A stretch of DNA of 32,111 bases, from positions 1-32,111 of IMG/VR virus record IMGVR_UViG_3300030012_004008, one strand, 5' to 3'. Position 1 is the stretch's first letter. Every line of letters starts with the position of its first letter. A program made the position numbers and the translations under genes. Under the pieces are notes generated by a model, which was not told where the DNA came from, made no database searches, and saw only the letters and a list, made by a program, of their open reading frames with translations. This stretch comes from a virus. Positions 3,365 through 4,642 of this stretch are shown one piece after another.

Positions 3365-3748
3365 ATGGACGTTAAGAAAAAACTGAAATATTTAGCTGAT
3401 GAACTTTTACGAATGAAAGATCATGAAGAAGCATTAAGAGATTTAGGTAGAAGAAATCCTGAACAAGCTAGTGCTATAGAGAATATTTTTGCTGCGTTCG
3501 AGAATTTAGATAAAGCTAAAGAGATAGATAAATTAATGTCTGTAGTATCGTTAATAAAAGATAATATCTTGAAGAGTAAAGGTTATAATAATTTTTCTGA
3601 AGAAGAATATCAGGAAGATAAAAATAAGATCTTTAGTATAAAAACTAAACTAGTTTCTACGAATACAATAACTAAATCAAGTATGAATATAGTTAATAAA
3701 ATTTATAAGAAACATTTAGGTATTCAAAAGATTTTAAACTCTAGATAG
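3365..3748 (+). CDS. Hypothetical helical protein
   Basis: A 127-residue, almost all-helical, Lys/Glu-rich protein (MDVKKKLKYLADELLRMKDHEEALRDL...). Heptad-like spacing of Leu/Ile through residues 1-75 suggests a coiled coil or helical bundle. No catalytic or metal motif is visible. An AGGG before the ATG could serve as ribosome binding site. It lies directly upstream of the tmRNA gene, whose predicted promoter box begins at its stop codon. Function unknown. Confidence 0.65.
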   Translation: MDVKKKLKYLADELLRMKDHEEALRDLGRRNPEQASAIENIFAAFENLDKAKEIDKLMSVVSLIKDNILKSKGYNNFSEEEYQEDKNKIFSIKTKLVSTNTITKSSMNIVNKIYKKHLGIQKILNSR

Positions 3749-3757
3749 ATATTTATA
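3748..3757 (+). promoter_or_regulatory. TATTTATA box upstream of the tmRNA gene
   Basis: GATATTTATA at 3748-3757 overlaps the stop of the preceding gene. A start 6-8 nt downstream would fall at about 3761-3764, exactly where the tmRNA P2 strand (GACC) begins. No TTG 20 nt upstream. The same GATATTTATAT core precedes the gene at 29231. Confidence 0.45.
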
Positions 3758-3760
3758 TGT

Positions 3761-3990
3761 GACCGCTAGTACTTGTATTAGCTGCTAATCTGGACCCGGG
3801 TTCGATTCCCGGCATCTCCACTAATTAATTTTAACGATATGGGGATGAATGGTATTGACAGGTAGTAAGGGTATAAGGAAGGTCAAACGCAATTAACTGG
3901 CGAACAAGTTGAAATGGCGATGGCTGCCTAGATAGGTACCCATACCAAACGGCAAACGGAGACCATGTCGTAAAAGTCTCGGAGGTAAGA
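3761..3990 (+). ncRNA. ssrA: Circularly permuted (two-piece type) tmRNA
   Basis: Transfer-messenger RNA, which with SmpB frees stalled ribosomes and tags the nascent peptide. The gene is permuted: the 3' tRNA-like half (3761-3820) precedes the 5' half (from 3841). The T arm is CCGGG/CCCGG around TTCGATT (3796-3812). The acceptor strand 3813-3819 with discriminator A3820 pairs with GGGGATG 3841-3847 over 7 bp, including the G3.U70 alanine identity pair (G3843.T3817). CCA is not encoded (A-CTA). The D-loop part reads TATTGACAGG, as in tmRNA 5' ends. A P2 helix joins the pieces: 3863-3867/3783-3787, 3870-3877/3772-3779 and 3881-3884/3761-3764. The 20-nt intervening loop is 3821-3840. Downstream lie the tag frame and a GAGAC/GTCTC hairpin (3959-3980). 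The 3' border (about 3990) is uncertain. No tRNA 5' half exists upstream of 3761 and no second T arm exists downstream, so a tRNA or one-piece tmRNA does not fit. Confidence 0.9.
3899..3931 (+). other. tmRNA tag reading frame, GEQVEMAMAA
   Basis: Ten codons from the probable resume codon GGC (3899-3901) to TAG (3929-3931) encode GEQVEMAMAA. The hydrophobic ...AMAA end is the kind of C terminus recognised by ClpXP-type proteases, and the initial G-E is typical of Bacteroidota tags such as GENNYALAA. The flanking TTAACT-GGC-GAA also looks like that group. TTAACT (3893-3898) can pair with AGTTGA (3907-3912), a small helix around the resume point. The resume codon is inferred, not proven. Confidence 0.75.
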
Positions 3991-4012
3991 GGGTAAGTAA
4001 AATGAGTATTAA

Positions 4013-4642
4013 ATGAATGTAATGGATAAATATTTTTCAACTGAAGACATACTTGATGGTAATGTCAATAACTTCTTTGAGTATACTCAAGAAGAGGTTG
4101 ATGATTTTATACAAGGTTTTGATCCTCTGTATATTAAGAGTATGCATGAAAGTGTATCTAGAGCTCTTAAATTTCAAACTAAAGATACTTCTAAAATAAA
4201 TAATATTATTAGTATCTTAAAAACGTTAACTTCTAAAGATCTAGATAAGTTAGATAAACTAGTTTATGAATTTACAGAATCTAATCCTAATATGCTTTGG
4301 AATATGCTCCATAAAGCTGATAAAGAATATTATAAAGATCCAGATAAATTTTACCAATGGTTATCTAATTTAAATAACGAGGAATTAGATAAAACTATTT
4401 ATACTGTTGCAGACGGTAAAAAAATACATTCAGATGATATTTATATTAGTAAGAGTGGTCCTACTAAAGTTGAGATACTAGATGGCTATATAGCTATAAG
4501 TTCTTCAAATTTAGACGCTTTAAATAGATTCAAAGAGAGAGTTTTACGTTCTAATGATGTTAAATTCGAACATAGAATAAAAAAGCATGATGGAATAACC
4601 ATTCATAGTTATGTGTTTAATTTAAACAAAACTAATGATTAA
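4013..4642 (+). CDS. Hypothetical protein
   Basis: A 209-residue protein I do not recognise. The N-terminal two thirds is helical and acidic (EDILDGNVNNFFEYTQEEVDDF ... LTSKDLDKLDKLVYEFTES), and the last 60 residues form a beta-rich segment (KVEILDGYIAISSSNLDALNRF ... IRSYVF-like end). No signal peptide, membrane segment or catalytic motif is evident. ATG 4022 (MDKYF) is an alternative start; neither ATG has a Shine-Dalgarno sequence. It begins just after the tmRNA 3' region and its stop codon overlaps the left inverted repeat that flanks hsp20. Confidence 0.65.
   Translation: MNVMDKYFSTEDILDGNVNNFFEYTQEEVDDFIQGFDPLYIKSMHESVSRALKFQTKDTSKINNIISILKTLTSKDLDKLDKLVYEFTESNPNMLWNMLHKADKEYYKDPDKFYQWLSNLNNEELDKTIYTVADGKKIHSDDIYISKSGPTKVEILDGYIAISSSNLDALNRFKERVLRSNDVKFEHRIKKHDGITIHSYVFNLNKTND

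Follow-up and report, generated by a model that had tools for sequence, protein, structure and literature searches.

Two-piece tmRNAs account for 53 of 133 unique phage tmRNAs, mostly aquatic, and they also occur in the pelagiphage Mosig's group (PMC9004378). In the OM43 myophage Melnitz and its relatives, which are T4-like aquatic phages, a permuted ssrA gene with a tag frame is present, and the Melnitz tmRNA is reported to be of the alphaproteobacterial type and to have a glutamine riboswitch, a description that would set the gene reported here apart (PMC9004378). The chromosomal permuted tmRNAs (RF01849, RF01850, and RF01851) share with the present gene the gene order, the G3.U70 acceptor stem, and the P2 helix joining the two pieces, but they differ in their tags and in having the pseudoknot PK1. 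The one-piece tmRNA of Bacteroidota (RF00023) likewise has a Gly resume codon in the context TAACTGGC, tags of the form GE..YAMAA, and TTTTGACAG and TTTGGAC in the tRNA-like domain, whereas it is unpermuted and approximately 370-400 nt long. Six permuted tmRNAs located in phage tRNA arrays also have a short linker between P2 and the tag and score 55-64 bits with the model of the present family; they differ in their ANDNFALAA-like tags and array setting, and no type IX domain was found in the two contigs tested. ARAGORN misses these compact tRNA-array tmRNAs or mis-calls their tags, and RF04321 finds those tested. A one-piece tmRNA was also observed, unannotated in its record, in Cellulophaga phage phi38:1 (L215, 26803-27164), with an odd putative ARAGORN tag, AQIEANMEAVNAILNLEVAVGV, that lacks an AA end.

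The window, that is, the whole stretch of DNA analysed, comprises 32,111 bases and is a viral contig from IMG/VR. ARAGORN called a permuted tmRNA in it at 3729-4022 with the tag GEQVEMAMAA, and positions 3771-3931 matched the Rfam model RF04321 (tmRNA_permuted; 69.7 bits, E 1.2e-11, gathering cut-off 47 bits) end to end, over model positions 1-213 and in permuted order; this model originates from PMC11915505. The two results agree with a preliminary description of the locus as a phage-encoded circularly permuted tmRNA. The covariance-model check proposed there was positive for RF04321 and negative for the clade models RF01849-51 (alpha_tmRNA, beta_tmRNA, and cyano_tmRNA), none of which exceeded its cut-off. 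Neither ARAGORN nor Rfam found a second tmRNA in the window, and thus no one-piece gene was found there that would make this one a remnant. A blastn search against isolate phages gave matches of T-arm length only. Folding of the coding piece alone was not significant (z -0.67), as expected for an RNA that is two-piece and pseudoknotted. Since the window encodes baseplate wedge proteins and a 138-kb relative encodes capsid, portal, terminase, and sheath proteins, the phage can be regarded as a T4-like myophage. The suggestion that a permuted tmRNA might be new in such a phage fails because phage two-piece tmRNAs, including that of Melnitz, were reported in 2022 (PMC9004378); the gene is a stripped-down variant among already known phage two-piece tmRNAs and not a first. 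We consider it likely that 3749-3982 is an intact two-piece (circularly permuted) tmRNA gene of a T4-like phage, most likely one on Bacteroidota, which has its own phage-type promoter and whose product is cut, joined, charged with alanine, and, with host SmpB, rescues ribosomes and tags their products. The parts of the gene are as follows.

About 3749 (promoter-like motif) to about 3980-3982 (3' pseudoknot), + strand: whole unit, refined extent.
3749-3757, + strand: promoter-like motif ATATTTATA, immediately 5' of the gene and retained by almost all relatives.
3761-3820, + strand: acceptor RNA piece with the P2 3' strand, T arm, acceptor 3' strand, and discriminator A3820, from the RF04321 alignment and covariation; exact ends predicted.
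3761-3764, + strand: P2d 3' strand GACC, pairing with 3881-3884; both-side changes in 3 of 4 pairs.
3772-3778, + strand: P2c 3' strand CTTGTAT, pairing with 3871-3877; 98.3% of cells paired, both-side changes in 2 pairs.
3785-3792, + strand: P2a/b 3' strand, pairing with 3859-3865; both-side changes in 3 pairs, a single mismatch in the window row (columns 30/106).
3796-3812, + strand: T arm; 100% paired, one C-G to G-C swap.
3813-3819, + strand: acceptor 3' strand CATCTCC, pairing with 3841-3847; 100% paired, one A-U to G-C change.
3821-3840, + strand: intervening sequence of 20 nt, predicted to be removed from the mature RNA; conserved in length and position, variable in sequence.
3841-3982, + strand: coding RNA piece, starting GGGGATG (3841-3847) and then TATTGACAGG, from ARAGORN and RF04321; 3' end approximate.
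3899-3931, + strand: frame encoding the tag GEQVEMAMAA, from the resume codon GGC to the stop, as called by ARAGORN; frame and AMAA end kept in relatives.
3926-3937, + strand: possible helix-5-like hairpin over the stop codon (GCCU/AGGU), by inspection, in most relatives.
3949-3980, + strand: H-type pseudoknot (S1 3949-3953/3967-3971, S2 3959-3963/3976-3980), formable in 20 of 20 members.

Using the adjacent Hsp20 gene and RNA patterns as queries, we found approximately 20 distinct members of the family in other viral contigs. The RNA is missing from several contigs that do have a related Hsp20 gene, and it is therefore not essential to this phage group. When 17 distinct rows were aligned, pairing was seen in 98.4% of the stem cells, and both-side changes occurred in 10 pairs. 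Such changes were observed in 35 cells, compared to a shuffled mean of 10.1, and 0 of 500 shuffles were as high; nor did any of the 500 equal the observed pairing or covariation score. When the 3' partners were displaced by 1-3 columns, pairing fell from 98.4% to 37-48%. One column block of the first alignment was shifted by hand before counting, and an independent realignment without the shift gave the identical register. The stem covariation is thus far above chance level.

The preliminary description had placed a T arm and acceptor 3' strand at 3796-3820, a 20-nt loop, and GGGGATG at 3841, and all of these were found there. The 7-bp acceptor stem that it proposed is fully paired, with its G3.U70 pair (3843.3817) invariant in 17 of 17 distinct relatives. 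Across the acceptor stem and T arm, whose halves are separated in the gene, 12 of 12 pairs are formed in 100% of cells, with one compensatory pair in each. The main source of covariation is P2, the block-wise helix predicted between the regions of 3761-3787 and 3863-3884: its 18 pairs are 95.8-98.5% paired, 8 of them with both-side changes. The compensatory changes anticipated in related phages are therefore present in both stems. The intervening sequence of the relatives is 17-22 nt long and variable; CCA is not encoded in the window gene and is encoded in some relatives. The downstream pseudoknot is formed by eight different S2 pairings across the 20 members. Because an H-type pseudoknot arises in ~9% of cases in a single shuffled tail, its support lies in the fixed place and the compensatory changes. 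For one relative the script chose an alternative pairing first, and the common pairing is present there too.

The 138-kb relative contains 31 copies of ATATTTATA, and 28 of them lie between genes, mostly within 60 nt of a gene start; shuffling leads one to expect about 2 copies of the core motif TATTTATA. In the window, TATTTATA (as ATATTTATA) is located at 733, 903, 1543, 3750, 8751, 10180, 25099, and 29181; it is strongly enriched between genes and also occurs in the contigs L048-L054. It is similar to the T4 late promoter TATAAATA, with the middle bases changed, and is likely a late-type promoter. Transcription would proceed from the gene's own ATATTTATA promoter and, by analogy with T4 late promoters, start near the first P2 base, so that the precursor would begin at P2. 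In the long-tag relatives described below, a terminator-like hairpin and T run lie 3' of the pseudoknot. Host tRNA-processing enzymes could excise the 20 nt that separate the two acceptor strands, leaving the acceptor RNA and the coding RNA joined via the acceptor stem and P2. G3.U70 would direct charging with alanine, and host SmpB and EF-Tu would bind the RNA; SmpB would have to come from the host because a search of seven phage contigs revealed none. The charged RNA may then enter ribosomes stalled on mRNAs broken during infection, where translation would resume at the Gly codon GGC and append GEQVEMAMAA. Since this tag resembles the host tag GENNYAMAA, the tagged product would be delivered to ClpXP-type host proteases. 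Gene order, structure, covariation, tag frame, likeness to the host tags, and the lack of PK1 are directly visible in the sequences. Rescue of ribosomes and tagging for proteolysis are plausible inferences from them, as are promoter activity, cleavage, charging, and any benefit to the phage.

A distinctive structural feature is the missing PK1, a usual feature of tmRNAs that lies outside the definition of RF04321. In 20 members, the distance from P2 to the resume codon is only 10-16 nt, which is too short for PK1. Most tmRNAs possess PK1 (PMC1168896), and tagging in E. coli requires it unless a hairpin substitutes (PMC3968760). The A at position -4 of the resume codon, equivalent to E. coli A86 (PMC2481249), is invariant among the relatives. 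At 3895-3910 of the window, a short possible hairpin, AACU...AGUU, holds the resume codon in its loop, and three members show a U-A to C-G switch; this hairpin might stand in for PK1, and codon constraint accounts for it equally well. The missing PK1 would also fit an RNA acting as a decoy or inhibitor, which binds SmpB or ribosomes, tags poorly, and blunts host trans-translation, comparable to the CDS-less form of phage DS6A; a phage form without a tag frame does inhibit host tmRNA in E. coli (PMC11915505). However, the tag frame is intact in all members and its end is host-like and of the protease type, and we regard the decoy as unlikely.

The preferred reading, a functional rescue RNA, includes a Bacteroidota host. 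No host marker was found in the window itself. The type IX secretion sorting domain PF18962 is encoded in seven family contigs, including both of those >130 kb. Flavobacterium phage immuto, which has a related baseplate wedge protein, encodes the domain too; it is absent from Microcystis phage Mel-JY01, the nearest isolate by baseplate wedge protein. Type IX secretion is found in Bacteroidota and close relatives. Because the relatives carry these domains, the host of the phage family is probably a member of the Bacteroidota, with which leaders ending in AQ or GQ are also consistent. AGGAG-type ribosome-binding sites precede many genes of the window, and these fit such a host less well because they are rare before Bacteroidota genes. 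The sorting domains lie in large phage proteins (L050, 3791-7039, and six other family contigs), which suggests that these proteins are displayed or secreted by infected Bacteroidota cells. The 138-kb relative also encodes a GroEL-like protein (L049, 95-1567) that is ~51-57% identical to those of several phyla; a GroEL tree was rejected as a host indicator, its very long branch being uninformative.

A one-piece tmRNA was found in 6 of 6 and 31 of 36 sampled Bacteroidota genomes, with GENNYAMAA, GEDNYAMAA, and GENNYALAA among the tags. Since the phage and Bacteroidota RNAs share the resume site TAACTGGC and have similar tags, the phage RNA matches its likely host while its gene order does not. 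An above-threshold permuted match occurred in only 1 of 393 Bacteroidota genomes. A separate contig of that genome bears a native one-piece tmRNA, so the permuted copy is an extra one; it lies on a 1.6-Mb contig in a phage-like region, in the neighbourhood of tRNAs and of genes for a DNA polymerase and a helicase, and its ARAGORN tag is GKVIQMNNAPVRLAA.

An ordinary permuted tmRNA acquired from an alpha-, beta-, or cyanobacterial host would have a natural source, as these groups are known to carry permuted forms and alpha-type tmRNAs occur in T4-like marine phages of SAR11 and OM43 (PMC9004378). Against such an origin, alpha_tmRNA and cyano_tmRNA gave no match among the matches listed, in which weaker overlapping clan matches are hidden, and the best clade model, beta_tmRNA, matched partially at 47.3 bits versus a cut-off of 84. 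The exact tRNA-like core had no match in the genomes of 84,980 species, PK1 is absent, and the tag, resume site, and type IX domains are Bacteroidota-like, making this origin improbable. The mean identity of the tRNA-like domain (0.75 to Bacteroidota, 0.73 to other one-piece, and 0.77 to other viral permuted tmRNAs, with nearly all of the alphaproteobacterial set left out) was rejected as an origin test, as it does not separate Bacteroidota from other origins.

The tag frame noted earlier after P2 is conserved, most members encoding G[ETAK]QVE[MY]AMAA or close variants; the plain 10-residue tag of the window is the commonest length. Two sister groups, comprising eight relatives (one of them cut), contain 26-27 extra in-frame codons, giving tags of 36-37 codons, GKQVNTTIASIFASLSAIRSLSQETIVAKEQVFAMAA and GKQVELAKVNVEDILSYITDLAMDAEYVEEPALMAA, that keep a GKQV start and an AMAA or LMAA end like the 10-codon form. 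The tag frame is open in all long-tag members, and the other frames are mostly closed. Synonymous changes are not dominant in these frames, which therefore give no support for selection on the tag peptide. ARAGORN mis-calls or shortens these tags; its call VKARW... for four of the relatives was rejected in favour of the frame from the conserved GGC to LMAA. The extra codons could mean that the tmRNA mainly attaches a special peptide instead of a degradation tag and that the long tags reveal its real use, but the window and most members have the plain 10-residue tag with an AMAA end as in the host, and this use is very improbable. A passive remnant or attachment-site copy of host ssrA is scarcely credible: ssrA is a frequent integration site of phages, and pieces of the gene are often carried by them (PMC9004378), but the whole gene is retained with its intact covarying stems, conserved pseudoknot, promoter-like motif, and tag frame, and it is not a copy of a host gene end because the likely hosts have the one-piece form.

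With the family model, other viral permuted tmRNAs scored 46-72 bits versus 25-36 bits for chromosomal ones, a comparison confounded by base composition; the chromosomal range is that of sampled alphaproteobacterial tmRNAs, matched mostly over the tRNA-like part. These scores hint at a phage-borne lineage. In the open-access literature, supplements aside, we found no description of a permuted tmRNA family that lacks PK1, has host-like and long tags, and probably belongs to phages of Bacteroidota; an earlier listing is possible. Tentatively, the family may represent a distinct PK1-less permuted lineage of phages, not chromosomes, in which the tag is adapted to each host: GEQVEMAMAA where this is a member of the Bacteroidota and an ANDNFALAA-like tag in other phages. 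Such a lineage could have come from a fresh circular permutation of Bacteroidota ssrA or from the spread of an old phage-borne form, and in some members a different role of the tag would account for its extension to 36-37 residues. The gene suggests that phages bring a permuted tmRNA into a one-piece phylum while copying the host tag. It makes testable the idea that phage rescue RNAs replace or retune host trans-translation, as well as the dispensability of PK1 in nature and the spread of ssrA circular permutation.
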